Origin: Wenyingzhuangia marina
GTDB lineage: Bacteria; Bacteroidota; Bacteroidia; Flavobacteriales; Flavobacteriaceae
Direction of reading: 5' to 3'
NCBI RefSeq assembly: GCF_900130035.1
Contig: NZ_FQXQ01000001.1
Location: forward strand, 496,001-560,000
Length of the DNA: 64,000 nucleotides
Shown: piece by piece, positions 6,197 to 58,000 of the stretch
Position numbering within the stretch: the stretch's first letter is position 1
Layout of the letters: each line of letters starts with the position of its first letter
Program-made: the position numbers and the translations under genes
The notes under the pieces: model-generated
Told to the model about the DNA's origin: nothing
The model's input: the letters and a program-made list of their open reading frames with translations, nothing else
Databases searched by the model: none

Positions 6197-6226
6197 AAGG
6201 AATTAGGCGACCTCATAAAAATGACC

Positions 6227-6234
6227 TATTTTTG
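6227..6234 (+). promoter_or_regulatory. Candidate Bacteroidota -7 promoter box
   Basis: TATTTTTG fits the Bacteroidota sigma-A -7 consensus TAnnTTTG and lies 18 bp before the ATG at 6253. No clear -33 TTG is seen, so this is a pattern match only. Confidence 0.35.
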
Positions 6235-6252
6235 AACTATAAAAATTTACCC

Positions 6253-12846: not shown

Positions 12847-13003
12847 AGATTAATTATTATGCAGGATCATCTGTTTGTAAAACAGTCAAAACAGAAGAGC
12901 AATACTTTTAAGTATTAAATTACAAAAAAGCTATAAAAGAGGTAAAAAACCTTATAAACATACATTGTTTAATACCTAAATACGTTATCACAAAAACCTT
13001 ACC

Positions 13004-13011
13004 TATATTTG
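13004..13011 (+). promoter_or_regulatory. Candidate -7 promoter box for tatD
   Basis: TATATTTG matches TAnnTTTG exactly and lies 18 bp before the preferred tatD ATG at 13030, within the 183-bp divergent spacer. This also argues against the upstream TTG at 13009 as a start, since that codon lies inside the box. Confidence 0.45.
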
Positions 13012-13029
13012 TTTTATAATACATTAATT

Positions 13030-39821: not shown

Positions 39822-42137
39822 TTAACAACTAATTGCTACTTTTTCTCTTATCTGTTGTGTGGCATTCACCATCACTTCCAAAGCCTTTTTTGTTTCTGGC
39901 CATTTTCTTGTTTTTAAACCACAATCTGGATTGATCCAAATATTTTCTTTTGGAATATATTTTTCTGCTTTTTCAATCAAATCAATTACTTCTTGTGTAG
40001 ATGGAACTCTAGGGGAATGAATATCATAAACTCCAGGTCCAATTTCATTTGGATAATTAAACTCCGCAAAAACATCTAACAATTCCATTTGAGAACGAGA
40101 ACATTCAATGGTAATCACATCGGCATCCATATCTGCAATAGATTTGATAATATCATTAAATTCTGAATAGCACATGTGAGTATGAATTTGTGTTTCATCT
40201 TTCACACCACTTGCAGACAATTTAAACGCATTTACCGCCCAAGTTAAGTAATCATTCCATTGCTCTTTTTTTAATGGCAATCCTTCTCTAATAGCAGGTT
40301 CATCTATCTGAATAATTTTGATTCCCGCTGCTTCTAAATCTACCACCTCATCTCTAATGGCCAAAGCAATTTGATTACAAGTGGTTTTTCTTGGCTGATC
40401 ATCTCTTACAAATGACCATTGTAAAATAGTTACAGGCCCTGTTAACATTCCTTTTACATATTTATTTGTTAAGGATTGCGCATATTTTATCCACTCTAAA
40501 GTCATCGGGTTTAAACGCTCTACATCCCCAAAAATAATAGGTGGCTTTACACAACGAGTTCCGTAACTCTGCACCCATCCAAATTGAGTAAAAGCAAAAC
40601 CTTCTAACTGCTCACCAAAATATTCAACCATATCATTTCTTTCAAACTCTCCATGCACTAAAACATCCAGTCCCACGTTTTCTTGAAACTCGATAGATTC
40701 TTTGGTTTCTTGAGCTAGCAAAGCATTGTATTCCTCGTTGCTAATTAATCCTTTTTTATGCTTGGCTCTCCAACTTCTTACTTCTGGAGTTTGGGGAAAA
40801 GAACCTATGGTAGTGGTAGGATACAATGGTAATTGTAATACTGCTGTTTGAATGATTTTTCTTGTTCTAAAAGAACTTTTACGATGTAAATGCTTCTCTT
40901 TAATAAAACATTCACGATTTTTCACCTTGAATTTGTGAATTCTACCAGACTCTCTTCTTTCTTGAATGTCTTTTTTATTGTTTTCAAAAGACAATAAATC
41001 AGCATGAGTAGGATGGGTACTTAATTTTTGTAACAACACTACTTCTTCTAATTTTTGAGCAGCAAAACTTAACCATGATTTTAATTCCTCATCTAATTTT
41101 TCTTCGCTTTCTAAATCAACTGGAACGTGCAATAAAGAACTTGAAGTAGCTACCCAAACTCTATCGGCTCCTAAAACTTCTTTGGCTTTGTTGATTTTTG
41201 TAATAGATTTGGTAATATCATTCTTCCAAATATTACGTCCATCTACCAATCCTAAAGACAATATTTTTGATTGATTTTTAAAATCAGATTGTAATATTTT
41301 ATCCAATTGAGTTTCATTTCCTCTGGTTAAATCAACATGTAATACAGCTCCTGGTAATTGATTAATCAATACTAAATTATCTAAAACATCATCAAAATAA
41401 GTAGCAGTAATGAACTTTACCTTGGGAAATTCCTTACTTAAAAACTGATGTGTTTTCTGAATGGTAAATTGTTCCTTATCAGTTAAATTTAATGCTAAAA
41501 AAGGTTCATCAATTTGGATATAAGTAGCTCCTAATTGCTCTAATTCAGTAATAACTTCTTTATAAACAACTAACAAGTCATTCAACAAATCCAGCTTATC
41601 AAACCCTGCTTCTTTTTCTTTACCCAACAATAAATACGATGCCGGACTAATTAATACTGGCTTTGCATTAATTCCTAGCGCAACGGCTTCTTTATATTCA
41701 TTAATTATTTTTTTTGATAAAAACTGAAAAGTCTGATTTTTTACAAACTCTGGAACAATATAATGATAATTGGTATCGAACCACTTGGTCATCTCCATAG
41801 CCGTTATATCGTAATTTTCTGTTTGTAATCCTCTTGCCATGGCAAAATAGACCTCTAACTCAGAAAAATTTTTGTTATTCAATAATTCTTGATAACGTTC
41901 TGGCACCGCACCAACTAACAAGGTGGTATCTAGTACCTGATCGTAAAAAGAAAAATCGTTAACAGGAATTAAATCTATGCCTGCTTCTTGTTGTTTTTTC
42001 CAGTTTTCTTTTCTAATTTCATACGCAACAAACTCTAAAGTCTCTTGATTACTGTTTTTAGCCCAATAACTTTCTGTTGCTTTTTTTAATTCTCTTTTTG
42101 CTCCTACTCTAGGATATCCTAAAACATGATTTTTCAT
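39822..42137 (-). CDS. metE: Cobalamin-independent methionine synthase
   Basis: A 771-residue two-barrel enzyme that transfers a methyl group from methyl-tetrahydropteroyltriglutamate to homocysteine. Both halves are present: the N-terminal GYPRVGAKRELKKA and the C-terminal zinc site, with HMCYSEF (His and Cys, about 652-654) and the distal Cys in NPDCGLKTR (about 740). Length is normal. It is transcribed away from the accessory island. The decayed lrp promoter segment lies directly upstream, so the ancestral regulator probably faced it head to head. Confidence 0.96.
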   Translation of the reverse strand: MKNHVLGYPRVGAKRELKKATESYWAKNSNQETLEFVAYEIRKENWKKQQEAGIDLIPVNDFSFYDQVLDTTLLVGAVPERYQELLNNKNFSELEVYFAMARGLQTENYDITAMEMTKWFDTNYHYIVPEFVKNQTFQFLSKKIINEYKEAVALGINAKPVLISPASYLLLGKEKEAGFDKLDLLNDLLVVYKEVITELEQLGATYIQIDEPFLALNLTDKEQFTIQKTHQFLSKEFPKVKFITATYFDDVLDNLVLINQLPGAVLHVDLTRGNETQLDKILQSDFKNQSKILSLGLVDGRNIWKNDITKSITKINKAKEVLGADRVWVATSSSLLHVPVDLESEEKLDEELKSWLSFAAQKLEEVVLLQKLSTHPTHADLLSFENNKKDIQERRESGRIHKFKVKNRECFIKEKHLHRKSSFRTRKIIQTAVLQLPLYPTTTIGSFPQTPEVRSWRAKHKKGLISNEEYNALLAQETKESIEFQENVGLDVLVHGEFERNDMVEYFGEQLEGFAFTQFGWVQSYGTRCVKPPIIFGDVERLNPMTLEWIKYAQSLTNKYVKGMLTGPVTILQWSFVRDDQPRKTTCNQIALAIRDEVVDLEAAGIKIIQIDEPAIREGLPLKKEQWNDYLTWAVNAFKLSASGVKDETQIHTHMCYSEFNDIIKSIADMDADVITIECSRSQMELLDVFAEFNYPNEIGPGVYDIHSPRVPSTQEVIDLIEKAEKYIPKENIWINPDCGLKTRKWPETKKALEVMVNATQQIREKVAISC

Positions 42138-42162
42138 AGTATTTTAGATTAAAATTCTACCA

Positions 42163-42170
42163 CAAAACTA
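42163..42170 (-). promoter_or_regulatory. Candidate metE promoter box
   Basis: TAGTTTTG on the minus strand matches TAnnTTTG and lies 26 bp before the metE ATG. It is just metE-proximal to the lrp-type repeat that starts near 42190, so a regulator binding in that repeat could act on it. Confidence 0.4.
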
Positions 42171-42189
42171 CAACACAACAAAATACATC

Positions 42190-42462
42190 TAAAAAAACAG
42201 TCTAAATACAGATAAAAAACCTTTTAAAAATAATTAAACAGAAAAATACACTATCTTAGTTTTTGAAAAAGCTAAAAAAAGAAAAAAATACTATTTATAC
42301 ACCAGACAAAACATACTTGACATTATTAAAACAGTTACAAAAAATGCTAGAATTACTATAAAAGAACTGGCTAACATTACCAACTTACCTAATACATCCA
42401 TTCATGAAAGAATTAAAAAACTTGAAAAAAACGGTTATATTACCAAACACTTTGCTATATTA
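42190..42462. repeat. Direct repeat, left copy (lrp promoter and 5' end)
   Basis: This stretch matches 51655-51929 in the same orientation. By manual alignment of the 42241-42462 part there are about 20 differences in about 220 bases, roughly 90 percent identity, including a one-base loss in an A-tract. Homology covers the promoter region and the first 50-odd codons of the Lrp/AsnC gene, then stops abruptly where transposase sequence begins. Confidence 0.9.
42293..42462 (+). pseudogene. Decayed 5' fragment of an Lrp/AsnC regulator
   Basis: The counterpart of the first 57 codons of the intact gene at 51759. The start codon is ATT instead of ATG, the A-tract near codon 20 has six rather than seven As (frameshift), and the sequence is cut off within the first wing of the DNA-binding domain. 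Remaining readable parts match NARITIKELANIT and ERIKKLEKNGYITKH of the intact protein. Differences include both silent and amino-acid-changing sites, so decay is not very recent. It cannot make a functional regulator. Confidence 0.85.
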
Positions 42463-42463
42463 A

Positions 42464-42631
42464 CATGTTAACAGCATTCTGGAAGACGAGTTTTATCTAC
42501 ACCAAACCTTTGATAGCTTGCAAAAAACAAAAAAAGCAAGTAAAAATACAATCAAATCATATAACTCTAAAAAATTACATTTATGTTTAAAATATAAAAC
42601 ACCTAATCACGTACACCAAAACGTAGCTTAA
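42464..42631 (+). pseudogene. 3' remnant of an IS3-family transposase (orfB)
   Basis: An uninterrupted 55-codon frame with no start reads the C-terminal end of an IS3-type DDE integrase: VNSILEDEFYLHQTF, then KNTIKSYNSKKLHLCLKYKT, and PNHVHQN before the stop. Known IS3 transposases have the equivalent ERVNGILKxEFYLD...YNxxRLHxSLxYKTPNxVH pattern. Everything upstream, including the D and D of the catalytic triad, is missing, and the fragment begins one base after the lrp fragment ends. It is a scar of IS activity at the island border. Confidence 0.72.
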
Positions 42632-42921
42632 CTTTAATCAATCATATGTAGATCTATTTTAGTACTAAAAAAAGAGATCCATCAAATCAACACATTGATA
42701 CGATAAAAGAAAATTAAATTGATTATCAAAAACGAATTAACTGGATAGGTGCTTCGTTAAAAGTACAGTACGAGGAAATTTATTTTGTTTATTCTCCCCC
42801 ACGCTATGAAGAGAGAAATCCAACTCTACAAACCAAATATTTAAATAAACTATTCTTTTTGAAGTCAGTACATCCAAACAATATATTTCAAATATCTTTG
42901 GATCAAAATAAAGTTTAATTA
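42632..42921. other. Spacer between IS remnant and HTCS gene
   Basis: At 42647-42670 there is a stretch (TGTAGATCTATTTTAGTAC) resembling the terminal inverted repeat of IS3 elements, which often read TGTCAACCTATTT, a likely right end. At 42718-42918 a 66-codon frame without a start (INWIGASLKVQYEEIYFVYS, then PPRYEERNP) runs to a TAA three bases before the HTCS start; I do not recognise it and it may be a gene remnant or chance. No clear TAnnTTTG promoter for the HTCS was found. Confidence 0.4.
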
Positions 42922-45900
42922 ATGTTATATAAGTTTCATACAAAACGACAATTGCTTCATAATAAATACGACTCACAGCAATTACATAACTTATTAAAAA
43001 AAATATCACTCCTATTTGCGAGTTTTCTGTTTTGTGTGTCTTCTGCGTATACTCAAAACTTTGATGTCCGTTTTAATCACATAACCAGTGATAATGGTCT
43101 TTCACAAAATACAATCGAAGATATTCTTAAAGACAGTAGAGGTTTTGTTTGGTTCGCTACACGAAATGGACTAAATAGATATGATGGATATTCCTTTAAA
43201 GTTTATAAAGCAGGAAACTCCGAACATGATTTATCGAGTAATTTTATTCATTCTATTTGTGAAGATTTAGAAGGAAATTTATGGATTGGAACAGAAAATG
43301 GGTTGAATATATTTGACACCAAAACCAATACCTTCTCCGTTCTGTTTCAGAATCCTGAAGATACCAATAGCATTTCCGACAATAACATTTCCGATATTGT
43401 GTGTGATAAAAACGGCATTATTTGGGCAGGCACATACACTCAGGGTTTGATTCGTATTCAAAAAACTACGAACGCAAAATATATTTTCAAACGATATCAA
43501 TACACACCAAACGAACCAACAGGTATATTAAGCAATACAATTCATACATTGTTTATCGACAAAGAAAACAACCTTTGGATAGGAACAGACAATGGTATTA
43601 ATAAATTAGATAACAGCACCAATTCTTTTGAACCATACCGAAACATTTCAGATGAAATAAATCCTTTAAGCCATAATTCTGTTTCAGTCATTTTTGAAGA
43701 TTCATTTGGATATATCTGGATTGGAACCTGGAATGGATTAAACCAGATGAATAAGGCAACTGGTGAAATTAAATATTTCTTGTTTGATACTAAAAACCAG
43801 TCAAATAGTTCAAATTCCGCAATAAATACGATTGACGAAGATATAGAAGGCAATCTGCTAATAGGTTCTATAAATGGTTTATACAAGTTTGTCAGGAAAG
43901 AAAGCAGATTCTATCAATTTTCTGTGAAAAGCAATAGTGACTATGCATTGAGCAATGAATTGATTTCATGTATTGAAACCGATAGTTTAGGTAATGTTTG
44001 GATCGGAACTCACATGGGAGGCGTTAATCACTATAATGTACATCAAAAAAAATTTAAGCACATTGTTATTGAACCATTGCCCGAAGAAACAAACAACAAT
44101 AATATAATCAACTCAATATACACAGATCCAAAAACATTATGGATTGGCACAGCAGGAAGCGGCCTTTATTGTTTAGATAAGCTAACAGGTAAATACAATC
44201 ATTTCAAAAACATACCTGGCGATTTGCAAAGCATAAACGGAAATTATGTTTCTGCAATTAAAAAAGATAACATTGGTAATTTATGGATTGGTACCTGGGA
44301 AAGCGGTTTAAATAGAGTCCATTTAAATTCAAAACCCATTCGTTTTGAAAGAATCTCAGAGAAAAACGGCTGGAACAGCATGCTAAACAAATCCATTACC
44401 AGTATCCATATTGATAGTAGTTTTGTGCTGATTGGAGGCGAATATGGATTAGACAAACTGATTACAGAGAACAAAAATATAACACCAGTTGCTAATAATC
44501 AGAACTGGACAAACAACATTAGTCAGGTACGCTGTATTCTTAAGGACAAGCAAGGCTTTTTCTGGATCGGAACAAGACTAGGACTGTATTGCTTTCATGA
44601 GTCAAAACTGAAAACCAGTTTGTCTGATGTTGATATAACCTATTATCGCTCAAATGCAGATCAGCCTAATTCATTGCCATGCAATTTTATTGAAACACTT
44701 TGCGAAGATCACATCGGGAACATCTGGGCAGGAACTTTTGGTCACGGAATCTGCCAGATCCAACGAAAAAATAATGACGAAGTTATATTTAGAAGCTTCA
44801 ACGAAAAGGATGAACTATCGAACAATGTAATTTACAGCATACAAACAGATAAAAATGGTGACTTGTGGATAGGTACCGATTACGGATTGTCAAGGTTCGA
44901 TATTACAACGAAGAAATTCAGCAACTATTATGCATCCGATGGTTTACAAAGTAACCAGTTTTTTTGGGGGGCAAGTACCAAAGGAGAAGATGGGACACTC
45001 TATTTTGGCGGAACAAATGGGGTTAACTATTTTGTGCCAATTGAAATAAAAGACATCGATCCTATGACGAATGTAACCTTCACCGACTTTAAACTATTCA
45101 ATAAATCTGTTAATGTTGGCGAGGAGGAACACAAAAAAAACATCCTTAGTAAGGATATTTCTATGGCTTCTGAAGTCCGTTTAACTTACAAAGAAGACAT
45201 ATTCTCAATTGAATTTTCTGCGCTTACTTATTTTCAACCACAAAAAATCAACTATGCATACAAACTGGAAGGAGTTGATGATGAATGGATACATACTTCT
45301 TCGACCCAACGATTTGCAAATTACAGAAACCTTGATGGAGGAAAATATACCTTTCTTGTAAAAGCATCTAACAGTAATGGAGAATGGAGCCAGCATCCTA
45401 CAAAACTTGATATTATTATTACACCTCCGTTTTGGGACACCCTGTTGTTTAAAATATTTGGTATTTCGTTACTGGCATTTTTTATTGCATTCTATTTCAG
45501 GTATCGAACAAGAATATTGATCATTCAAAAACAAAGTCTCGAGGAAATAGTAAAAAACAGAACCAATGAAATTGCACTACAAAAAGAACAACTTACCATT
45601 CAGAACAAAGAGATTACAGCACAACATAATGAATTAATGGATCTGAATAAAAAAGTTCAACATGTCAATCAATTAAAGCTTCGTTTTTTTACCAATATTT
45701 CACACGAATTCCGAACCCCGTTAACACTTATTGCCGGTCCGGTTAAAAAATTACTCACAACCAACCCTGAACCTGATGAAACAAAGAAATCGCTTCAAAT
45801 CATTGATCGTAATGTACAACGATTAATTCATCTTATAAACCAATTACTAGACTTCAGAAAAGTGGAGACCAACAAGTTAGAGCTAAAAGTTTCGAGAGGA

Positions 45901-47274
45901 GACCTATTATCATTTATAAACGAGATATGCACTTCATTTGAACAGCTGGCACAAGAAAAACAAATCAATTTTACTTTTACGCACGAACAAATTAATGATG
46001 ATCAATGGTTTGATTATGAAAAACTAGAAAATATTCTTTTCAACCTGCTTTCAAACGCTTTTAAGCATACTCCTGCAAATGGGGAAATTAGTATCTCTCT
46101 AAAGGTAAATTCGAAAATAGCAGATTTAAACCTGCAGGCCTCAACCGTAATCATAAAAGTTGTCGATACAGGTATCGGGATACCTGCCGAACATCTTGGC
46201 AATATCTTTAAACGTTTCTATCAAATAGACACGCCTGAGAATATAAAGAATAGGGGATCTGGTATTGGCTTATCGCTTACCAAGGACTTGGTAATTGCAC
46301 ATCATGGAACTATTCACGTTAAAAGTGAAGTAGGCAAAGGATCTACTTTTACTGTAATTATTCCTTTTCAAAAAGAATCATTCAGCTCCAATGAAATTTC
46401 GGATGAGACAATGATTTGGGATAACAGCGGTTTAAAACATAAAATGGATTCTAGTGAATTATCTGTTGAAACTAACACCAAAAAAAACACCTCCACAAAA
46501 AATACTTTAAAAAGTACCGATAAACCTACGATTCTAATCGTTGAAGATAATTTTGACCTAAGAGAATTTGTAATCAACAGTCTTGTATACAACTATAATA
46601 TTCTGGAAGCAGAAAATGGAAAAACAGCATATGAAATTGCAAAAGTCCATAATCCTGAACTTATCATTAGCGACATAATGATGCCAGTTATGGATGGTTT
46701 AGAATTATGTACCCGTATTAAAAACAACCTGCTTACAAGCCATATTCCTGTTATACTTTTAACGGCACGTTCTTTAGTCGAAAATTGGATAGAAGGCCTA
46801 GAATCTGGTGCCGACGATTATGTTCCAAAACCATTCGACCTTGATTTACTTAAGGCTAAAATAAAGAACCTGCTTGAGTCCCGTGAAAAATTAAGGAAAC
46901 ATTTTAGTGGTGATGTTAGTATATCTTCTTCTGAAATTACTACAACGAAAGCCGATAGCGATTTTATTAATAAAGCCTTTGAAATTGTAGAAGAGAACTA
47001 TACAAATCCTGAGTTTGGTGTCAAAGAATTGGTTGATAAAATGAATGTAAGCCATAGTCTGCTTCACAAAAAATTAAAGGTAATTGTGAACAAGTCGGCG
47101 GGTGATTTTATTACTATAATTCGTTTAAAAAGAGCCGCCGAGCTGCTGAACAATTCAGCTAAAAATATTAGTGAAGTTGCATACGAAGTAGGTTTCAATG
47201 ACCCAAAATACTTTAGTCAAAAATTCAAGAGATATTTTGGAATACTCCCTTCTAACTATATAAAAAACAAATAA
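42922..47274 (+). CDS. Hybrid two-component system sensor-regulator (HTCS)
   Basis: A 1450-residue one-protein signalling system. After a signal sequence (about residues 24-45), Reg_prop repeats form two seven-bladed propellers (about 50-740; repeated GNLWIGTxxGL), then a Y_Y_Y domain (768-834) and one transmembrane helix (about 841-861). Cytoplasmic modules follow: HisKA with His928 in SHEFRTPLTL, HATPase (FNLLSNAFKHTP about 1040; DTGIGIP; GSGIGLSLTK), a receiver with Asp1251 in SDIMMPVMDG, and an AraC-type DNA-binding domain (1351-1450). HTCSs sense glycan fragments in the periplasm and activate nearby genes; the adjacent GH29 is the obvious target. All catalytic residues appear intact. Confidence 0.95.
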   Translation: MLYKFHTKRQLLHNKYDSQQLHNLLKKISLLFASFLFCVSSAYTQNFDVRFNHITSDNGLSQNTIEDILKDSRGFVWFATRNGLNRYDGYSFKVYKAGNSEHDLSSNFIHSICEDLEGNLWIGTENGLNIFDTKTNTFSVLFQNPEDTNSISDNNISDIVCDKNGIIWAGTYTQGLIRIQKTTNAKYIFKRYQYTPNEPTGILSNTIHTLFIDKENNLWIGTDNGINKLDNSTNSFEPYRNISDEINPLSHNSVSVIFEDSFGYIWIGTWNGLNQMNKATGEIKYFLFDTKNQSNSSNSAINTIDEDIEGNLLIGSINGLYKFVRKESRFYQFSVKSNSDYALSNELISCIETDSLGNVWIGTHMGGVNHYNVHQKKFKHIVIEPLPEETNNNNIINSIYTDPKTLWIGTAGSGLYCLDKLTGKYNHFKNIPGDLQSINGNYVSAIKKDNIGNLWIGTWESGLNRVHLNSKPIRFERISEKNGWNSMLNKSITSIHIDSSFVLIGGEYGLDKLITENKNITPVANNQNWTNNISQVRCILKDKQGFFWIGTRLGLYCFHESKLKTSLSDVDITYYRSNADQPNSLPCNFIETLCEDHIGNIWAGTFGHGICQIQRKNNDEVIFRSFNEKDELSNNVIYSIQTDKNGDLWIGTDYGLSRFDITTKKFSNYYASDGLQSNQFFWGASTKGEDGTLYFGGTNGVNYFVPIEIKDIDPMTNVTFTDFKLFNKSVNVGEEEHKKNILSKDISMASEVRLTYKEDIFSIEFSALTYFQPQKINYAYKLEGVDDEWIHTSSTQRFANYRNLDGGKYTFLVKASNSNGEWSQHPTKLDIIITPPFWDTLLFKIFGISLLAFFIAFYFRYRTRILIIQKQSLEEIVKNRTNEIALQKEQLTIQNKEITAQHNELMDLNKKVQHVNQLKLRFFTNISHEFRTPLTLIAGPVKKLLTTNPEPDETKKSLQIIDRNVQRLIHLINQLLDFRKVETNKLELKVSRGDLLSFINEICTSFEQLAQEKQINFTFTHEQINDDQWFDYEKLENILFNLLSNAFKHTPANGEISISLKVNSKIADLNLQASTVIIKVVDTGIGIPAEHLGNIFKRFYQIDTPENIKNRGSGIGLSLTKDLVIAHHGTIHVKSEVGKGSTFTVIIPFQKESFSSNEISDETMIWDNSGLKHKMDSSELSVETNTKKNTSTKNTLKSTDKPTILIVEDNFDLREFVINSLVYNYNILEAENGKTAYEIAKVHNPELIISDIMMPVMDGLELCTRIKNNLLTSHIPVILLTARSLVENWIEGLESGADDYVPKPFDLDLLKAKIKNLLESREKLRKHFSGDVSISSSEITTTKADSDFINKAFEIVEENYTNPEFGVKELVDKMNVSHSLLHKKLKVIVNKSAGDFITIIRLKRAAELLNNSAKNISEVAYEVGFNDPKYFSQKFKRYFGILPSNYIKNK

Positions 47275-47582
47275 CAGAAAAGTTTCAGCAATAATTTTTT
47301 TTTAATTGAGGTATAGTGCTCAATTGATAAACTTTCTTACACCTATTTGCGATACATATCTGATGATTGATTACAAATCAGACTCATTTTGTCATGATTA
47401 AAAGTTGTTTGAGTAGTTCATCTTCAATCTAAAGATAACAGCGTTAATGCATGTTTGATGGTCAATCATATGCCATTAATATTCCAAATTCTTCATCCTT
47501 TATTCCAGATTCATTAACCTCCAACTTATTCTTTATTAATAATATTACACCCTATTATTTAAAGAATCAAAAAAAATATACA
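47275..47582. promoter_or_regulatory. Spacer HTCS / GH29, presumed HTCS target region
   Basis: A 308-bp AT-rich spacer. I found no exact TAnnTTTG box, terminator or RNA gene. A frame continuous with the GH29 runs back to 47451 but encodes no plausible signal peptide, so it is treated as leader. If the HTCS controls the fucosidase, its operator should be here. Confidence 0.35.
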
Positions 47583-50500
47583 ATGAAACAACTACAAAAT
47601 TACCTTTTAATCATTGTCTTTGCGTTGGCAAATTTGACATTACCAAATGTGGTTTCAGCACAGTCACTGGATTACGAACTTGAACCTATCCCCGATATTC
47701 AGGATCCATTAACTGAAAATTCTGTTGAAATGGATAACTCCAAAACATTTGAAGAGGTGAAACTGGATCTTCCTATTTCCTCCGGTCCTTTTGAACCCAC
47801 ATGGGAGTCGATTGAAGCTAATTATCCTGGAACCCCCGACTGGCTGAGGGAAGCCAAATTTGGAATTTGGATTCATTTTGGGCCACAAGCTGCAGGTGAA
47901 AGCGGCGACTGGTATGCTAGAAGACTTTATACACAAGGTACAACTGCTTATAATAACCACCTTAGTAACTACGGACATCCATCAGAAGTTGGTTATAAAG
48001 AGGTGCTTCGCGACTGGAATCCTGACAAACTAGATCCTGCGGGACTAGTTGAATTATTCAAAAATGCAGGAGTGAAATACCTAATAATCCAAGGAGTTCA
48101 CCACGATCAGTTTGATATGTGGGATTCAAAATACCAGCCATGGAATTCAACAAATATGGGACCCAAACGCGATTTAGTTGGTGAGTGGGTAACTGCAGCT
48201 AAAAATGCAGATATGCGTTTCGGTATTACTTTTCATCATGAATATTCATGGTGGTGGTGGCAAACTGCCTTTCAGAGTGATGTAACCGGCGGTAAAGCGG
48301 GGGTACCATACGATGGTAATTTAACTCTTGCCGATGGTGTCGGACAATGGTGGGAAGGTATGGATCCACGATACTTATATGGCGTTAACTTACGCGAATA
48401 CAAAGGAGTTGCAAGTGCTGCCAATAGTAATTGGTCCCCTCCTCCAGCAGGTATCTTTAGCAATCATTTAGAATTCAGTGAGTGGTATGCCAAATGGTGG
48501 GCACTGCGTATGATGGATGCTGTTGATAAATACAACCCTGACTTTATATATACTGATGGAACCGACCAACAACCTTTTAGTGGATTTGGTACCGGTACAG
48601 GATATAAGAGCGATGCTATGCAGCGTGTTATAGCTGACTTTTACAATAAAACATTGAATCGTCGTGGTGAAGTTGATGTGTTTAGTATTGTCAAATTCCG
48701 AAACAAAACCAATGGTACGGTTAATACTGAAGAAGGTAGTATTCCAGGAAATATAAAAACCGATCAGGCATGGATTGCAGAAACTCCAGTAGGTGATTGG
48801 TTTTATGCTCCAAACTTTACATATAGCTCTAATGCTGTGATTCGATACTTACTGGAACAAGTTGCCCGCGATGGTAATGTTGGCTTATGCGTTTCGCCCC
48901 TACCTGATGGATCGTTTGATGCAGGAAGCACAACAATGCTTACGCAAATTGGTGAGTGGTTATCAATTAACGGAGAAGGAATATATGGAAGTCATGCCTG
49001 GGAGGTGCTAGGAGAAGGTGCAGGCGGTAATCTAAATGTGCTTCCAGGTGGAAAAATTGGTAGTAATCAAGCAAATCACACTTTTTATACAACTGATTTC
49101 CGCTTTACTGTTGGTAAGAACGACAGCTTGTATGCATGGTGTATGAAAGTGCCTCAAGCAAATGAAGAACTTACAATAACTTCATTAGGTACATCAAGCG
49201 ATCTGTTGGCAGCACCAATTAGCTCTGTAAAACTTTTAGGCTATGATGGAGTACTTACATGGAATCAGGATGCTGATGGTTTACATATAACCTGTCCTGC
49301 TTCGATGAATTATAAAACCGCTGTAGGCTTTAAAATTGGTCCAAGTATATATAATTATTCAAGTCTTTCTCAATTAATAAACGAAGCTCAGGCTGAAGTT
49401 ACATCAGCTGAACAGAATATTGGTCTTAATACCGGACAGTATATTCAGGATTCTATTAATACATTAAATGATGCAATCATTGTTGCTCAGTCCATTGAAC
49501 AAACCAGCAATGATTCTACTATTAAAACAGGCATCTTAACATTAAAGGAAGCGATAAACAACTTTAATGAATATGGTCAAAATAAAGGTGGAAAACTGTC
49601 TTTTGCAAACACTCAGAACATTACACGTGTAGCATTGCAGGAGGCTCGCAACTTTGACAGGTCGGATGAAGGTGTCTCCGGAACCGGACGATGGGGATTA
49701 CTAGCAGAGCCCTGGAAGTATACCAGCAATATTGTGAATCAAGAAGGGAATTCCAGAGGAGGTTTCGATAATTATAGTAACAGTCGATCTGTGGGTATTC
49801 AAAAGTGGTTCTCGTCTGATCCAGTAATTGAGAATGGAATGATATATCAAACCACAACACTACCTGCTGGCAGTTATAAGCTTAAAATTAAGGTGCATGA
49901 ACAATATGGTTTAAAAGCAGGAGAGATATACATGAATGTTGCTGCTGGTGATGTTTTGCCATTAACAACAGACGTGCCAACAAATGCATTGGCTTATTAC
50001 GATATGCAAAATTCTTCAACAGGAAGTCAGATTTCAGCTTGTGCATTTTCATTGTCAGAAGAAACAAAAGTAAGCATTGGATGGACTACAACCATTGCAT
50101 CAGAAGCTGCTACCAGAAGTATGAGGGTTAATGAAATATTACTTCTAGATGGAAATGATAATGATATTTCATCGACATACCTGGGTAATTACACAAGTAT
50201 TCAACGTAAAGATGCTTCTTATAGCAGGTTCGGGACACCGAAAAACTGGACGGTAGAAAATTTTAACTGTCAGACAAGTTCAGAAGGGCTTAGAAATGGA
50301 ATTGATAAATGGTCTGGCTATAATTCTTTAATGATGGGTTTTTGGGGAGATGTTGCAAATGCTGTTGGTGATCCATCGAATGCCAAATTGTACAAAAAAA
50401 TTACACTACCTGCTGGAAAATACGTTTTTACAGCAGCTTACGATGCAAATTTCAATATGTCTGAAATGTATTTGTTTGTGTCAAAATCAGTTCCCAATCT

Positions 50501-51365
50501 TTCAAATATGAAGGAGACTGCTTTAGCCTTTTACCCCATTTCAGGGGCTCCTACAAATGGAGAGCATTATGGTTTAACATTTACAATCGAAGAAGAGTCT
50601 ACAATTTATTTAGGATGGATTGGAGATTTAACTACGAGTTCTAACTTGGAATTTAGGGCAACAGAAATCAATCTATTACGAGTTATATCTGAAGAAGGCA
50701 ATTATTTAAACGAAGGAGCCTTTGATGCAACTGTTGCTGATGAACTATACACTATTGGTTCCAGTGAATTTGATTTACTTACAAATTTAAGTTGGCACGT
50801 CTCAGCGGACAACTTTAGATATATTGAAGGAAATGCTAATGGAAGCATTATAATTGGCGATATCGATTTTGGGGCCAGCAGTCATAGAAAGTTTTCTATA
50901 CATACTGCATTAAACGGCACTATTCCTAAAAACTCAATGTATGATTTCTACAAAGATGACGAAACGACTCCATTTGTTTCTCTATCGCCCATTTCCACAT
51001 CAAGTTCATTGCTTTTTGATACTTCTGAATCCGATCCTTTTTTAATAGATGGAAATCATAAAATCACAGTAAAATACAATAATCATATATCAAATATTGA
51101 ATCGATAGAAATTAAACCAAAAACTTCGTTGAGTATTAAAGATGTTAAAAACACAGAGAATGATATTAATCCTTATGATATTTACTCTGAAAAAAACACC
51201 ATAATGATAAATGGTCTAAATGGTGAGTTGGTTCGTGTTTATACGTTAGATGGTAAATCTATTTATAAAGAAAAAGCTACTATGACTTCTCTGTCTATAC
51301 CTGTTAAACAAGGATTATATTTTATCATTATTGATAGATATGCATATAAAATTGTTTGTCATTAA
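47583..51365 (+). CDS. Multidomain secreted alpha-L-fucosidase (GH29) with T9SS tail
   Basis: A 1260-residue exported glycosidase. I choose ATG 47583, which gives a clean signal peptide (27 residues, ending VVSAQ); the longer frame from 47451 adds 44 residues with no signal. The GH29 barrel spans about 73-583, with AKFGIWIHFGPQA, the HHDQFDMWDSK pair and the probable nucleophile Asp325 in FIYTDGTDQQ. Then come a FIVAR-like helical region (about 590-664), two DUF5013-like beta-sandwiches (about 679-858 and 874-1033), another beta domain (1038-1180) and a T9SS sorting domain (about 1187-1260, with VYTLDGKSIYK). It should release L-fucose from glycans at the cell surface. GC content and codon use differ from neighbouring genes. 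Confidence 0.92.
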   Translation: MKQLQNYLLIIVFALANLTLPNVVSAQSLDYELEPIPDIQDPLTENSVEMDNSKTFEEVKLDLPISSGPFEPTWESIEANYPGTPDWLREAKFGIWIHFGPQAAGESGDWYARRLYTQGTTAYNNHLSNYGHPSEVGYKEVLRDWNPDKLDPAGLVELFKNAGVKYLIIQGVHHDQFDMWDSKYQPWNSTNMGPKRDLVGEWVTAAKNADMRFGITFHHEYSWWWWQTAFQSDVTGGKAGVPYDGNLTLADGVGQWWEGMDPRYLYGVNLREYKGVASAANSNWSPPPAGIFSNHLEFSEWYAKWWALRMMDAVDKYNPDFIYTDGTDQQPFSGFGTGTGYKSDAMQRVIADFYNKTLNRRGEVDVFSIVKFRNKTNGTVNTEEGSIPGNIKTDQAWIAETPVGDWFYAPNFTYSSNAVIRYLLEQVARDGNVGLCVSPLPDGSFDAGSTTMLTQIGEWLSINGEGIYGSHAWEVLGEGAGGNLNVLPGGKIGSNQANHTFYTTDFRFTVGKNDSLYAWCMKVPQANEELTITSLGTSSDLLAAPISSVKLLGYDGVLTWNQDADGLHITCPASMNYKTAVGFKIGPSIYNYSSLSQLINEAQAEVTSAEQNIGLNTGQYIQDSINTLNDAIIVAQSIEQTSNDSTIKTGILTLKEAINNFNEYGQNKGGKLSFANTQNITRVALQEARNFDRSDEGVSGTGRWGLLAEPWKYTSNIVNQEGNSRGGFDNYSNSRSVGIQKWFSSDPVIENGMIYQTTTLPAGSYKLKIKVHEQYGLKAGEIYMNVAAGDVLPLTTDVPTNALAYYDMQNSSTGSQISACAFSLSEETKVSIGWTTTIASEAATRSMRVNEILLLDGNDNDISSTYLGNYTSIQRKDASYSRFGTPKNWTVENFNCQTSSEGLRNGIDKWSGYNSLMMGFWGDVANAVGDPSNAKLYKKITLPAGKYVFTAAYDANFNMSEMYLFVSKSVPNLSNMKETALAFYPISGAPTNGEHYGLTFTIEEESTIYLGWIGDLTTSSNLEFRATEINLLRVISEEGNYLNEGAFDATVADELYTIGSSEFDLLTNLSWHVSADNFRYIEGNANGSIIIGDIDFGASSHRKFSIHTALNGTIPKNSMYDFYKDDETTPFVSLSPISTSSSLLFDTSESDPFLIDGNHKITVKYNNHISNIESIEIKPKTSLSIKDVKNTENDINPYDIYSEKNTIMINGLNGELVRVYTLDGKSIYKEKATMTSLSIPVKQGLYFIIIDRYAYKIVCH

Positions 51366-51654
51366 TTGAGTTTGTGTATTTTTTAGTATTTAAGAAACCT
51401 AAATTTTCATATATAAGAGGTTGTTAGTCTCAAATAAATATTTAACAATCAAAAGCTCACTCTATTTGTAAGTATATTGGCAAGTCACACGAGCTACGCT
51501 CAGACCAAAACTTGCCAATATCTTACAAATGCCAACCCAAGTACCGCCTTTAAGGGCCGTCTAGGGTTTCCCTTCCATAAAAAAAAATGAATTCGTGCTT
51601 CATAGCTAGGTCAGTAGGAATTGATCAAGATATAAGATTAGATATGTAAAAAAA
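51366..51654. other. Right-border spacer of the accessory island
   Basis: Between the GH29 stop and the right copy of the lrp repeat. It holds the nested hairpin at 51465-51529 and then a GC-richer stretch (about 51531-51575, containing AAGGGCCGTCTAGGGTTTCC) unlike the surrounding AT-rich spacers. No ORF or RNA family was recognised. Confidence 0.5.
51465..51529. repeat. Long nested hairpin
   Basis: Arms at 51465-51485 and 51510-51529 (TTTGTAAG...TTGGCAAGT against its complement) pair over 20 bases with a single bulged T. The 24-base loop holds a second small stem, GAGC-TAC-GCTC. There is no T-run after it, so it is not an ordinary terminator. Possible readings are an IS200/IS605-type end, a recombination site or a structured RNA. 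Confidence 0.8.
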
Positions 51655-51929
51655 ACCAAAAAACAATCTATATACAGAGTAAAAAACCTTTTAAAGATAG
51701 TTAAACAGAAAAAAACACTATCTTAGTTTTTGAAAAAGCTAAAAAAGAAAAAAACACCATGTATATACCCGACAAAACAGACTTAACACTTTTAAAACAG
51801 TTACAAAAAAATGCTAGAATTACTATAAAAGAACTGGCTAACATTACCAACTTATCTAACACACCCGTTCACGAAAGGATTAAAAAACTTGAAAAAAACG
51901 GTTATATTACCAAACACGTTGCCTTATTA
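51655..51929. repeat. Direct repeat, right copy (lrp promoter and 5' end)
   Basis: Partner of 42190-42462. Here the sequence continues into an intact gene, so this is the functional copy. The two copies bracket about 9.2 kb containing the IS scar, HTCS and GH29. Confidence 0.9.
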
Positions 51930-52220
51930 GATAGAACTCTTTTAGGTAAAAAGTTAATTGTGTTTTGCAATATAAAACTGAAAGAACATACCATGGAAAT
52001 TGGAAATCAGTTTGTAAAAGATATTACTGCTTTAAAACAAGTAACTGAATGTTATAACATTTCTGGAGATTATGACTTTTTATTAAAAGTAATGGTAAAT
52101 GACATGGAAGGCTATCAGAACTTTGTTCTAAATCATTTAGGAAATGTAAAGAATATTGGAAGTACTCAAAGCACCTTTGTAATGGGAGAAATTAAAAACT
52201 CTACCGAAATCCCTATTTAA
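51759..52220 (+). CDS. Lrp/AsnC-family transcriptional regulator
   Basis: A 153-residue regulator. The N-terminal helix-turn-helix (about 5-60: LLKQLQKNARITIKELANIT, VHERIKKLEKNGYI) is followed by the RAM/AsnC ligand-binding domain (about 65-145, with ECYNISGDYDFLLKVMVNDM). Such proteins bind amino acids and control amino-acid genes. Its 5' region was once present beside metE, pointing to metE and methionine supply as an ancestral target; that is inference. The next gene starts 78 bp downstream. Confidence 0.93.
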   Translation: MYIPDKTDLTLLKQLQKNARITIKELANITNLSNTPVHERIKKLEKNGYITKHVALLDRTLLGKKLIVFCNIKLKEHTMEIGNQFVKDITALKQVTECYNISGDYDFLLKVMVNDMEGYQNFVLNHLGNVKNIGSTQSTFVMGEIKNSTEIPI

Positions 52221-52298
52221 CAAAACAAATAACAACAAAGCTATTGTTTTGATAAAAAATAAACACTATATTAGGTATTCAACTAAAAAATACTCAAT

Positions 52299-52751
52299 AT
52301 GGCTATCAAAAACTTTAGATCACCCGATACACGAGCAGGAACTGTAGTAGACAAAATATTAGTTTCGGATTATATGGTTCCTAGAAATAGGTTGATAACC
52401 TTTTCTCCCAAATTAAGTATTGGGGAAGCAATGCAAATACTGGTTACTAACAATATTGCTGGTGCATGTGTTTTGGATGAAAATGACATGATTTTAGGAA
52501 TGATTTCCGAAGGAGACTGTATGAAAAAAATTGCTCATAGTAGATATTACAATATTCCTTTACACGACCAAACGGTTGAAGAATACATGGAAACCATTGT
52601 AGAAACTATTGTGGGAGATACCAATATTTTTGATGCAGCACATATGTTTTGTACCTCAAGAAGAAACCGTTTTCCTGTAACCGAGGGAGGTAAAATTATT
52701 GGTCAAATTAGTAGAAAAGATGTTTTAAAAGCTGCTTTGGAAATGAGATAA
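52299..52751 (+). CDS. CBS-domain pair protein
   Basis: A 150-residue cytosolic protein made of two CBS domains (about 22-80 and 95-150), with VSDYMVPRNRLITFSPKLSI, GMISEGDCMKKI and the matching GQISRKDVLKAAL in the second. CBS pairs bind adenosine nucleotides and regulate partner proteins; the partner is unknown. It follows lrp by 78 bp, with an AT-rich spacer that may hold its own promoter. Confidence 0.9.
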   Translation: MAIKNFRSPDTRAGTVVDKILVSDYMVPRNRLITFSPKLSIGEAMQILVTNNIAGACVLDENDMILGMISEGDCMKKIAHSRYYNIPLHDQTVEEYMETIVETIVGDTNIFDAAHMFCTSRRNRFPVTEGGKIIGQISRKDVLKAALEMR

Positions 52752-52773
52752 AAACTATACTAGCTAAACTACG

Positions 52774-52807
52774 AAGAGCGTTATTATATAAATATAATAA
52801 CGCTCTT
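52774..52807. terminator. Rho-independent terminator between CBS gene and tamL
   Basis: Near-perfect hairpin with arms AGAGCGTTATTATA and TATAATAACGCTCT, placed between two convergent genes and followed by T-rich sequence. It probably ends both. Confidence 0.88.
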
Positions 52808-52812
52808 TATAT

Positions 52813-55095
52813 TTAAAAAGGATATCCTATAGCAAAATTTAAAATAGTGTTGCTTAACTTAATTGTACTTAAAGAATTTGATATGGGTTGTTTAACGGGC
52901 GTTGCCAAATCAAACCTAATGACAAAGCTTTGAATATCTACTCTTACTCCAGCTCCTACACTTGCCGCTAATTCATTGATGAAATTAGAAGAGAACTGAC
53001 CTCCTTCAAGCGACAAACTATTATCTTCTTCTAATGACGAGCTATTATTATATAACCAAACATTTCCTGCATCGGCAAATAAAGCTCCTTTTATTAAAGA
53101 ATAAATAGGGAATCGATATTCTAAATTGGCCTCCAAACGAATATCTCCAGAGCTATCAAAATAAGTACTATTGGTTGTACTACCATTATATCTTCCTGGT
53201 CCAATTGACCTTGAAGCAAAACCTCTAACGCTATAAGGCCCCCCAGCAAAAAATTGTTTTGTAAATGGTAAAACAGATGAGTTTCCATAAGGAATTCCCA
53301 AACCACCATACAATCTTGTAATCAAAGTTTGTTCTTTTCCCAACCCTAAATAATATCTAAAATCTATATCTACCTTGGCATACTGTGCATATTCTAATCC
53401 TAAAAAAGTCTTCTTTCCAGCAGAAGTATTTTGACTCAATAGACTTAATGCTCCACCAGCAATGTCAAGATTAGAAGCGAAGAATATCTGATTTTTCTTG
53501 GAACTTCTTCCCAACTCACTATAAGTTAAATTATATGTAAATCCAGCAATAAATTGTTGATCAAAGCTACTTTGTAAAAAAGCATTTTTTTCTAAAATAT
53601 CTTTAAAATCAGAAGTTGTATTAAACAACTTTACATAATTAATATTGATAGGGTTGATTTGATGACTTAAATATTTATTAGCATCCCAATGATATCCAAA
53701 ACTACTAGTAAAAGAAGACAATCCGTACAAATTAGATCTACTTAAATATTCTGAATCAAAAGAAATTTTAGTTTTTGGAACACCATATTTAAAACGACCT
53801 GTTAAATCCCAAGGAAAAATTAATCTAGGAAACGTTAAACTTGCTCCCAACCCTACTTTTAAACCATTTAAATTCTGAGTATTGTTCCCAATTTGAGTTT
53901 CATAAGCAACGGTTCCAGTAAGACTTAACAATTCTCCTCCACTAAACAAATTTCTATTTCGGTAATTAATAGACAATCCTGGACCTGCAAAATTGTTGGA
54001 TTTGGTAACCGCCTGCAATTCCAATCCTAAAGATCTTTTGTTCAAAGGAGACAAATAAATATTAGCTTCTAAGCTACCAAGACTATCATTTTCTTGATAA
54101 CTTTTTTCATCAAATTGAATATTTACATATTTATACGTTCCAATTGAGGACAATCTTTTACTAGTAATTTTTGAATTTTGTGGGTTGTAAAAATCATCCT
54201 TGTTTAGTAACAAATAATTATGGAGTCTTTTTGGTTTAAAAAACACAGTGTCTTGTATAAAGTAAACTCCTTTATATTCTGTACTGTCTAAAACTTTATT
54301 TTTTTGATCTAAATTATGATTTGGATAAACAGTGATTTTATTTATTTGATAAGGAATCAATGCTTTTTTAGGGGTTTCTTTTTTTATTCTTAAATACAAA
54401 TCAAAACGCTTGTTCTTGTATTGATTGGTATCTGCCTCAAAAATGATAAAATCTTGATTGAAATTGTAATATCCTCTGGCCTTTAAACTTTCATCAATTT
54501 TAATTCTTTCTTGCTTAAAAGATTCCAAACTATACCTAGTTCCTTTTTTTAATAAAGTGGTTTTTAATTCCTCTTTAATTTCTTTATAAAAAGGCAAGGT
54601 ATCATTTTCTAACTGATACGTTTCTAACACATAAGGCTCTGTTAAATCTATAGTATAGACAATACTTTTAGTATACTTTTTTTCTTTAACCGAAGCCGTG
54701 ACTTTACTATTAAAAAAACCTCGATTATCTAATCGGTTCTTAATTAAATTAATGACTTTATTTTGAGAAACGTTTGAATAATACATGGGGTTTTCTCCAA
54801 ATTTTTTATTCATGTATTTGGTTAAAAACCCTTTTTTTCCTTGCTCTGTTTTATAGTGATAATACAAACCAATTCTAGATCCTAAAAATTTACTATTAGG
54901 TTCTGGTCTTAATAATTCTTGTAACTCCTCTTCTAAGCTGGAAAGTCCTTTAATTTTATTTATGTTGTTTATTTTAATAGTGGCTCCACTATATAATTTT
55001 TCATCTTTAGGTATAAAACGTTTTACACTACAAGCACTTAACACAGTAACAACTATGAACAATAAACAAACCTTTAAAAAAATTACCTGCTTCAT
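52813..55095 (-). CDS. tamL: TamL: TamA/BamA-like outer-membrane lipoprotein
   Basis: A 760-residue outer-membrane protein. The start at 55095 (MKQVIFLK) overlaps the tamB stop by 4 bp and gives a lipoprotein signal with lipobox LSAC; a longer frame to 55131 only adds a charged leader inside tamB. POTRA-like repeats (about 30-330) precede an Omp85 barrel (about 340-760), with the conserved FFAGGPYSVRGFASRSIGPG loop and terminal NFAIGYPF. Together with TamB it moves proteins or lipids to the outer membrane. The Bacteroidota version is lipidated, hence TamL. Confidence 0.92.
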   Translation of the reverse strand: MKQVIFLKVCLLFIVVTVLSACSVKRFIPKDEKLYSGATIKINNINKIKGLSSLEEELQELLRPEPNSKFLGSRIGLYYHYKTEQGKKGFLTKYMNKKFGENPMYYSNVSQNKVINLIKNRLDNRGFFNSKVTASVKEKKYTKSIVYTIDLTEPYVLETYQLENDTLPFYKEIKEELKTTLLKKGTRYSLESFKQERIKIDESLKARGYYNFNQDFIIFEADTNQYKNKRFDLYLRIKKETPKKALIPYQINKITVYPNHNLDQKNKVLDSTEYKGVYFIQDTVFFKPKRLHNYLLLNKDDFYNPQNSKITSKRLSSIGTYKYVNIQFDEKSYQENDSLGSLEANIYLSPLNKRSLGLELQAVTKSNNFAGPGLSINYRNRNLFSGGELLSLTGTVAYETQIGNNTQNLNGLKVGLGASLTFPRLIFPWDLTGRFKYGVPKTKISFDSEYLSRSNLYGLSSFTSSFGYHWDANKYLSHQINPININYVKLFNTTSDFKDILEKNAFLQSSFDQQFIAGFTYNLTYSELGRSSKKNQIFFASNLDIAGGALSLLSQNTSAGKKTFLGLEYAQYAKVDIDFRYYLGLGKEQTLITRLYGGLGIPYGNSSVLPFTKQFFAGGPYSVRGFASRSIGPGRYNGSTTNSTYFDSSGDIRLEANLEYRFPIYSLIKGALFADAGNVWLYNNSSSLEEDNSLSLEGGQFSSNFINELAASVGAGVRVDIQSFVIRFDLATPVKQPISNSLSTIKLSNTILNFAIGYPF

Positions 55096-58000
55096 TCCTT
55101 TGTCGTTTTTTCTGTATTCTCTTTCTGCCAAAGCTCTTTAAACTTATTAAACTCTCTGTTGAATAAAAAAGCTATTCCAGTTACAATTACCTGACCATCA
55201 ATCACACTTTGATATTCATTTTTACGGAAACCTTTTAATCTATATCTTCTATTTTCCGTTAAAGCATATTCAATATTTACGTTCCCTATAATAGGCGTTT
55301 TATCATTTTGATCTTTAGATGTATTTTCAATTTCAAAACCACTACCTACTTGCACGGTTAATCTATCATTAAACAAACTTTTTTGAGCACTTACATTTAA
55401 CTGTGTGTTATTTTGCTCTCCTTCATCAGTATAATCTGTATAACTATCTAATTCAAACCCTAGCTCTACTCCAGTTTTTCCAACCAATTTATTTGAATAA
55501 TTATTTAATTGATTAGACAAAGCTTTGTTTACGTTATCTCTAGCCATAGAAAGAGATCCCCCATTACTACCATCACTTGTACTCGATGGAAAGAACTGAT
55601 TTAACACTAATAAAGAAAATACCTGTTTGTTTAAATCTTCTTCTCTATTATTTAATTGTTGTACTTGCGTATAAACTTGTCCACCCAATTCTCCTCTGGA
55701 TTCTTCAGGTACTTCTAAATTAAAACTGATTTCAGGTTTTAACAATTCTCCATTTAAATTTAAATACACCCAAAATGGCATCTTTTTTCTGTACTTATTA
55801 AGCTCTTCTGCATTCATTCCTGAAGTTACAGATGACATTAAACCACTTGCCGATGCTTTTACTTTGTATATAGCACTAATATCCATTTTGGCTTCTAAAG
55901 GATCTCCTTGCCAAAGTATGCTACTTCCTTTGGCAATTTCAAATTTACGATTCACCAAATTATACAAACTAGCTTCATAATGTCCGCTACTTACTTCGTA
56001 TTTTCCAGAAAGTGTGGTTCTACCATTTGGAGTCATTCCAAAATTTAAATCTGCTTCTCCCGAAACCTGTAAATTATCTCCTGTTTTTTTATCGATGACA
56101 ACATTTAAAATAGCCGATTTATCAACCTTTAAAATGGTTTTAATATCTAATCCTGTAACAACACCTGTAGATGTTTCTGAGTTCCCATCAGCTGTTAAAA
56201 TATCATTGGTTTGTTTTTTATTTACAAAAACAACCACACCTTCTCTTTCTACCGCTTCTATTTCCGATTCTGGAATAACATAAGTAAAATCGGTATTATC
56301 ATTAATTTTAATGGTTCCTGTTACTTTAGGAATATTTAAATCTCCTTCTATTTTTACATCTGTATCTAAAAATAATTGACCATAATACAAATCGTTATCT
56401 TCTTCGGTAGAGTTTAAAACTTGTAAATTTTCTGAATTTAATGTCAAATTAAATTTAGGATTCGAAAAATCGCTTGTGATTATTTCACCATCTAACACAA
56501 AAGAATTTTGTTCTTTATCTAAAATAGTAAACTTATTTAACAAAATGCTTGAGTTGTCTATTTTGATAGATTCTTCGGGAAAAGTAAAAGAAGTATTAAA
56601 ACTATTTACCTCTAATTTGGCATTGTTAAAATTTAAATCACCATTATAAATGGGAGCATCCATTTTACCATTCATATTAAAATTGGCAGATATACTTCCC
56701 GATGCATTAGAAATATATTGTTTACCAAAAGCTTCTATTTTACTTAAACTTAGTTTGTTTAAATTCACTTTTAAATTTAATGGCGATTTACTTTCTTCGG
56801 TATTATAACTACCTTCTACCAACAAATCAATGTTGTTTTGTTCTTGTAAAGAAAGAGCTACATCGTAATTTTTATTGTTAATGGTTTTGGCATTTAATTT
56901 TAAAGTTCCTAAAGCATTTTCAAGTACATTTAATTCTTCAATTTTTACATCAGAAACAAGATTTTGTTCTTTGTTAAAACGATTTATTTCCACACTTCCA
57001 CCAACAATTCCACTCGCTATATTTTGTTCTGGGTTTAAAAAAGCCATTAAATTTAACAAATCAAAACGCTGAAAATTGATTAACAAATTGTTGTTATTTT
57101 CTTCTTTTACCTGTGCCTCAAAACTTAAAGTTTGATTGTTTCTAGACAATTCAAAATCCGTAGAAGTAATATTTCCGTTAAACAGAATAGCATTACTCTC
57201 TGGTATTTTCCATAACTTACTATTCAAAATTAAATTCTTTGGATTGATATGAAATTTAACCAATGAGTCACTGGCTTTTATTTCTGAATTGATATTGATA
57301 ATTTTTTCCGCTTCATCAGAAGTAGAAAAATCTAACATCACCACGCCATCAATTACCTTTCCTTGTAAATTGATATTTTGAATGTTAATAGGATCATATT
57401 TTACATTGTCTATTTTTAAATCTAAATCAAATTTATCAGCCAAACTGTTTAAATAAAACTGTCCGTTTTTAATACTACTTCCTTGGTATTCTATAAAAGG
57501 AATATTAAAAGATGAAACTAATTTCTTTTCTGATTCGTTAAAAGACAAAGCTAATTTTATCGGTTCAAATTCATTTAACCCTTTAAAAAACACTTGATCC
57601 AAAACAGGATCTTGACTAATGCTTAACTCCGCTTTTAAATTGGTATTACCCAACACAGTATCTAATTTCTTTTTTGAAAAATAAGCGCTAATATGTTTAT
57701 TAATAGCAGCAGTAGTTTGCTCTGGATTGGCATTGGCGTTTAATTTTAAATTTAACAACCCGCTCGCTACACTTACACTTGTAGAGTCTTTAGCAATATT
57801 GCTTTTGATTATAAAATTACCTAATGGAAAAGACTCTTCGTTGTACACCAACAAACCATTTTCCGTTTGTGCATTTACAGAAAATTCATCTTGATTTGTT
57901 TTATAATTAACACGAACGCGAAGTCTTGCTTTTAAATTTTCTGAAGTTAAATTTAAAGCCTGAAGATTAATTCCTTTGATATTAATATCAGATTTTATAC

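Follow-up and report, generated by a model that had tools for sequence, protein, structure and literature searches.

An insert carrying HTCS and GH29 genes, bracketed by a direct repeat of lrp, in the metE-lrp locus of Wenyingzhuangia marina

Foreign DNA that enters a chromosome by a single (Campbell-type) crossover ends up between two direct copies of part of its target. In PMC3240628, on an incoming plasmid bearing chromosomal homology, 56 of 60 Escherichia coli clones gave a PCR product diagnostic of a flanking duplication; the duplications measured 109–950 bp in 14 sequenced clones and were attributed there to a single crossover of a circular molecule, and the other 4 of the 60 clones fitted homology-facilitated illegitimate recombination with deletion. 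Here we describe a similarly bracketed insert of 9195 bp in Wenyingzhuangia marina. It lies in a stretch of 64,000 nucleotides (the window, C1:496001–560000 of a 3.24 Mb genome), carries the genes of a hybrid two-component sensor/regulator (HTCS) and a GH29 glycosidase, and separates metE, encoding a cobalamin-independent methionine synthase, from lrp, encoding an Lrp/AsnC-family regulator. The bacterium most likely acquired this two-gene sugar-sensing and sugar-cutting segment within a gene pair that many of its relatives have kept together. The E. coli system of PMC3240628 differs in its engineered lacZ homology delivered by conjugation, whereas at the metE-lrp locus a circular intermediate is something that we infer and the event is old.

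The insert can also be compared with the polysaccharide utilisation loci of Bacteroidota, with which it shares an HTCS gene beside a secreted glycosidase gene and from which it differs in that no SusC/SusD pair was recognised between mfd and the Omp85 gene (genes further out being mostly untested). It does not, accordingly, qualify as such a locus, which is defined by a SusC/SusD pair beside the enzymes. An earlier note on this DNA had called it an unusual minimal polysaccharide utilisation locus; the local lack of SusC and SusD was correctly seen, but the label is weak and only a name, the defining pair being absent.

The direct repeat and the metE-lrp pair

The two arms of the repeat (Table 1) were 90% identical over 273 aligned columns, with a start-to-start spacing of 9466–9467 bp, and each spans lrp from about 100 bp before its start through codon 57. 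When the genome was searched with 42138–42921, the right arm was second only to the query itself (E 3.4e-101) and the next match had E 6e-4. The earlier note had described metE and an intact lrp separated by the HTCS and GH29 genes, a decayed lrp start on the metE side and a direct repeat of about 270 bp around 9.2 kb, all of which proved accurate: the four genes are present, and in the left arm the ATG start has become ATT, one base is missing from an A run and several amino acids are changed. Its description of the borders as scars was right about the repeat but understated it, as what was seen belongs to a duplication of the target, of which it forms one arm and which takes in the DNA upstream of lrp and has preserved both genes. 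The left arm runs on into native intergenic DNA on the metE side (42138–42191), which can be aligned with congeners, and other sequence precedes the right arm. Judged from these alignments, the repeat is a duplication of the target in which metE retains its full upstream region on the left and lrp retains its promoter region on the right.

Identity between the arms was 93% upstream and 90% in the coding part. Against the congener G002, the corresponding values were 91 and 80% for the left arm and 86 and 82% for the right arm, and against G003 they were 84 and 82% (left) and 81 and 87% (right). Since the arms are closer to each other than either is to G002 or G003, the duplication most simply dates to this lineage or to a very near unsampled one, and it does not appear recent; an arm-to-arm divergence of 7–10% also argues against a duplicate arising from the assembly. 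Changes were polarised inside the repeat with G002 and G003 as outgroups. Clear changes in the left arm numbered 1 upstream and 8 coding (the start codon, five other amino-acid changes and two silent ones, with residues read by eye), and those in the right arm 4 upstream and 3 coding, the coding ones all falling on third positions.

metE adjoins lrp without an insert in four of the six congeners (G002, G003, G004 and G006), and no lrp fragment was seen beside the metE-lrp gap in the congener stretches. As to the remaining two, the best Lrp of G001 reached no more than 62% identity, and in G005, which is 85% complete, none was found at E <= 1e-40. Over a wider range of relatives, metE and lrp were divergent with a gap of 152–166 bp in 51 of 82 distinct loci (53 of 84 examined, namely 80 from a search of relatives plus the four congener stretches, two of the latter coming from genomes already among the 80). 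Among the other loci, metE lay elsewhere in the locus in two, and 29 had no qualifying metE match, some of these being short contigs or having a partial metE match only; in Ochrovirga pacifica (L030), lrp stands beside a pepP homologue and metE is not between them. Horizontal acquisition into a divergent metE-lrp locus, as the earlier note had proposed, is supported by the empty site in the congeners. Neither of the two outcomes that it had named as evidence against this, relatives with HTCS-GH29 in place or a lack of relatives with adjacent metE and lrp, was encountered in what was searched.

The pairing of metE with lrp was seen from Flavobacteriaceae to some records labelled Cytophagales (intergenic regions of L028–L107). 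In an alignment of 53 metE-lrp intergenic regions, a CAAA..TA column block was conserved, and it is retained in the native DNA adjoining the left arm, where CAAAACTA at 42163–42170, read on the minus strand, is presumably a −7-like Bacteroidota box for metE. Near lrp, AG...CT blocks are also conserved and may act as operators, and the pairing across many Flavobacteriaceae suggests that lrp could serve as a dedicated methionine regulator. In G003 and G006, extra open reading frames (ORFs) lie between the metE 3' end and pepP (L116 8971–10211 and L119 7450–15431, respectively), so that both sides of metE are variable within the genus.

The codon usage of both cargo genes is atypical. A check of codon adaptation, which the earlier note had suggested, gave 0.539 for HTCS and 0.589 for GH29 against 0.696 ± 0.029 in a comparison set of 50 genes of > 200 aa (taken partly from the window and partly from 39.8 kb of contig 3), with HTCS and GH29 excluded from both this set and the codon reference, which biases the result toward a difference; the lowest value among the other listed genes was 0.621. 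G+C content at third codon positions (GC3) was 0.301 for HTCS and 0.270 for GH29 against 0.218 ± 0.023 in the same 50 genes. Overall G+C content was 0.349 in the whole insert, 0.374 in GH29 (up to 0.427 in parts) and 0.338 in HTCS, the comparison mean being 0.327. The earlier statement that it is higher inside therefore holds for GH29, and its figure of 29 G+C among the 60 bases of 48301–48360 was correct, but HTCS is near the mean. GC3 and codon adaptation are the stronger signals, G+C content being clearly raised only in GH29.

The cargo genes and their surroundings

In the HTCS, Reg_prop repeats, Y_Y_Y, HisKA, HATPase_c, Response_reg and HTH_18 all scored above the Pfam cut-offs, i.e. a sensor, a histidine kinase, a receiver and an AraC-type helix-turn-helix domain lie within one protein, as the definition of an HTCS has it. 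The catalytic domain of the glycosidase, Alpha_L_fucos (E 1.3e-69), aligns with GH29 fucosidases and exo-alpha-L-galactosidases (7ljj, 7snk, 7lnp and 4ni3), from which the protein differs by additional DUF5013 domains toward the C-terminus and a tail with a weak likeness to DUF6383 (E 0.0026, below the cut-off and a hint only). As L-galactosidases are among its best PDB relatives, the sugar that it cuts is uncertain. By eye, it has an Asp aligned with what we take to be the nucleophile position of these relatives, and its true start is probably at 47583, ahead of a signal peptide.

Both proteins were searched for in genomes of the family and the class, with two candidates scored per genome, so that matches can be missed. 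GH29 had matches at E <= 1e-100 in 5 of 299 family genomes, its own included, and at E <= 1e-180 in 2 of 395 class genomes (its own and G492). The HTCS matched 22 of the 299 family genomes at E <= 1e-180, again counting its own, and only its own among the 395 class genomes at E <= 1e-230; among the HTCS matches listed, identity was at most 38% near full length and at most 43% over part. In plasmids, searched with GH29 but with neither HTCS nor lrp, 16 records matched, none of them across 80% of the query, and GH29 had no match in IMG/VR.

A second GH29 gene of the same genome, on contig 3, sits in a cluster with SusC, SusD, GH31, GH97 and FecR genes, and its product is 64% identical to that of the window. 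This paralogue is 75–78% identical to proteins of G255 and G325, whereas the window GH29 is 60–65% identical to five relatives, with a sixth at 36%; on these identities, it is a divergent lineage and no recent local copy of the paralogue. A GH29 tree, another check raised by the earlier note, had seven rows and no starred branch, and gave no placement. We considered HTCS and GH29 as an inherited pair and rejected this, as six stretches around HTCS relatives (L178–L183) held no ORF of at least 180 aa matching the window GH29. SusC/SusD-like neighbours occurred in three of these stretches, one had a SusD-like gene with a SusC-like fragment, and in two this comparison showed neither.

Apart from HTCS and GH29, the insert holds only three ORFs of 80 aa or more, all of them short and antisense. 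A 66-residue frame at 42720–42918 was rejected as a gene remnant, as it overlaps edge segment L, judged by eye to be non-coding in G002; it belongs to no family in Pfam or PHROGs and matched only itself among 60 genomes, its own included. Neighbours of the insert in the window encode Mfd, aminopeptidase P, CBS and Omp85 proteins. There are also a TamB-like ORF at 55092–60080 (named by eye) and an ORF at 37621–38244 with no Pfam match, and at 2810–6193 we noted an ORF of 1128 aa with no Pfam match at E <= 0.001.

Table 1. Features of the metE-lrp locus (window coordinates) and repeats of the related G002 array (coordinates in L173)
Feature	Coordinates	Strand	Basis or remark
metE, cobalamin-independent methionine synthase, intact	39822–42137	−	Pfam PF01717 and PF08267; 81–91% identity in four congeners
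Native metE/lrp intergenic region, metE side, 155 bp	42138–42292		Alignment to 53 metE-lrp intergenic regions
Left arm of target duplication: lrp upstream and codons 1–57, dead	42192–42462	+	
Left edge of insert	42463–42686		No convincing homologue
Edge segment L, apparently non-coding	42687–42842	+	Homologous to G002 DNA upstream of SDR-AraC, ~68–70% identity
HTCS, hybrid two-component sensor/regulator, intact	42922–47274	+	Pfam domains
GH29 glycosidase with DUF5013 domains	47451–51365	+	PF01120, PF16757, PF16405; PDB relatives 7ljj, 7snk, 4ni3
Edge segment Rr, apparently non-coding	51465–51652	+	Homologous to G002 DNA downstream of AraC, 70% identity
Right arm of target duplication: lrp upstream and codons 1–57, live copy	51658–51929	+	
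lrp, Lrp/AsnC-family regulator, intact	51759–52220	+	PF01037, PF13412; 85–94% identity in four congeners
G002 array repeats (in L173)	~4870–5055, 6101–6276, 7254–7480, 10063–10286, 12838–13012		

Edges shared with a gene array of G002

Comparison of the insert with the six congeners gave, besides coding matches, two matches on G002 contig 23, which lie 2.1 kb apart in the same order as in the window: segment L matches DNA upstream of an SDR gene, and segment Rr matches DNA downstream of the next AraC gene. Their E-values against 2.17 Mb of DNA were 2e-7 and 1e-14, respectively, and none of 300 shuffles reached the score of either; besides the window and G002, one weak place only was matched (E 0.001, in the own genome). 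G002 has no HTCS-GH29 between the L- and Rr-like edges or at metE/lrp, and no match to the insert longer than ~190 bp was found in it (40 of 108 candidates scored). The Rr homology has to end at 51652 on account of the junction, and its stopping there cannot be taken as separate evidence for the end of an element.

The SDR-AraC unit of G002 lies between two of five direct repeats. These repeats, in contig 23 at 40000–59900 (L173), are 85–91% alike, with pairwise matches of 135–215 bp. The plus-strand genes of this array are AbiJ-like, lipoprotein, epoxide hydrolase with a propeller protein, SDR with AraC, and one unknown, and the array is flanked by ligA and trkA homologues (ligA, trkA and the lipoprotein were named by eye). 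With five repeats between accessory genes on the same strand, it is reminiscent of an integron-like gene-cassette array; the insert of the window, however, is without those repeats at E <= 1e-3, and a simple regular expression found no tyrosine recombinase in ~80 kb of G002 contig 23. In ten comparisons that looked for decayed repeat units in the left edge of the insert (42463–42686), the best score was reached by 1 in 300 shuffles (repeat D), that of an overlapping stretch by 6 in 300 and the others by 28–278 in 300.

Downstream of GH29, mostly inside Rr, there is a strong hairpin with long arms at 51464–51530 (DNA fold of 51420–51600, z −5.47), which is recognisable in G002 at ~70% identity. 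We rejected it as a repeat element, a phage or plasmid end or a known RNA, as the database searches were empty: there was no Rfam match at E <= 1, none in phages or plasmids, no exact pattern match in IMG/VR, and in the 299 family genomes only the hairpin itself was found (two candidates per genome). The edge L pattern likewise had no match in IMG/VR. Since L and Rr match G002 DNA around a different gene pair, the insert may stem from a Wenyingzhuangia-type accessory region, the cargo of which changes between shared non-coding edges.

Origin of the insert

The insertion is real, old and mechanistically ordinary. A search of the literature on insertion with repeats or on lrp with metE found nothing on this locus, which is no proof of absence. 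On balance, though with limited confidence, we think it probable that this lineage gained the insert as circular or re-circularised DNA that bore the cargo and a short lrp stretch, through a single homologous crossover into the chromosome. One crossover in lrp would give, in order, metE, the native gap, lrp codons 1–57, the cargo, a copy of the lrp upstream region and a full lrp; a direct repeat of the target on both sides with one copy truncated is indeed what was found. Next to metE this would leave a truncated lrp, and beyond the cargo a complete one that keeps its own promoter region, so neither gene would be lost; later the left fragment would decay and the right copy stay intact. Selection may be the reason that a duplication is seen, in that a survivor would have duplicated the shared control region, whatever the route.

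Several observations weigh against this account. No donor was found in which the cargo adjoins a piece of lrp, and no plasmid, conjugation or integration gene was recognised among the ORFs of the insert, so that the circular intermediate is a supposition. The ~220 bp at the left edge have no explanation. The upstream identity margin is small (93 vs 91%), and the complementary decay of the arms is only a hint, as it was not significant (Fisher p 0.11 for clear sites and 0.057 with ambiguous sites added). The own paralogue is the nearest to the window GH29 by path in the tree, if barely (1.04 vs 1.05 for G325). Moreover, with the right junction placed in an A run, a template switch or another illegitimate event would look identical. 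Such an illegitimate integration, which we regard as possible but rather unlikely, would mean that a copying strand left lrp at codon 57, followed foreign DNA and returned 271 bp upstream, or that foreign DNA was joined into a long-staggered break. It would yield the identical structure from one event, with the right junction inside an A run common to both partners and with no need of lrp homology in the foreign DNA. However, 9 kb is long for a templated insertion, and the genome gave no match at E <= 0.001 to Ku, the classical bacterial end-joining protein (among 14 control genomes, only Bacillus subtilis was positive), which weighs against classical end joining only.

The recurrence of L and Rr in G002 around other cargo would also suit a mobile element whose own recombinase was later lost, the 271 bp then being an attachment-site or target duplication. 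We consider this improbable, as the insert has no terminal inverted repeat (90 of 300 shuffles reached the score) and no recombinase-like or transposase ORF, and the own genome holds no second good copy of the edges, the best other matches being of 30 to 50 bases (E 6e-4 to 0.01). Known target duplications of transposons are, moreover, far shorter than 271 bp. Equally speculative is the idea that the edges are the ends of an exchangeable unit without a recombinase, shared among Wenyingzhuangia species, with HTCS-GH29 as cargo here and SDR-AraC in G002, that would move from a cassette-like array into ordinary loci, duplicate a few hundred bases of the target and leave the divergent pair working. 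Vertical inheritance from an ancestor with metE-HTCS-GH29-lrp, followed by loss of the cargo in relatives, would be in keeping with the GH29 relatives in the family (the five genomes above), but we find it hardly credible in view of the near-constant gap in relatives, the lack of an lrp fragment beside that gap in the congener stretches and the greater likeness of the arms to each other than to congeners.

As for function, a breakdown sugar in the periplasm would be the ligand of the HTCS, which would in turn activate GH29, a secreted exo-glycosidase for alpha-L-fucose or a related sugar; sugar uptake would be left to SusC/SusD systems elsewhere in the genome. With its empty sites in relatives, the locus shows cleanly how a regulator-enzyme pair can enter a chromosome and leave its target unbroken, the duplication having given two divergent genes each a copy of their shared control region, and it links an insert for sugar degradation to an array of variable gene content in a sister species. 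As an event, it documents well a kind of gene gain that is already familiar; the open lead is the shared edges that enclose different cargo in two species.

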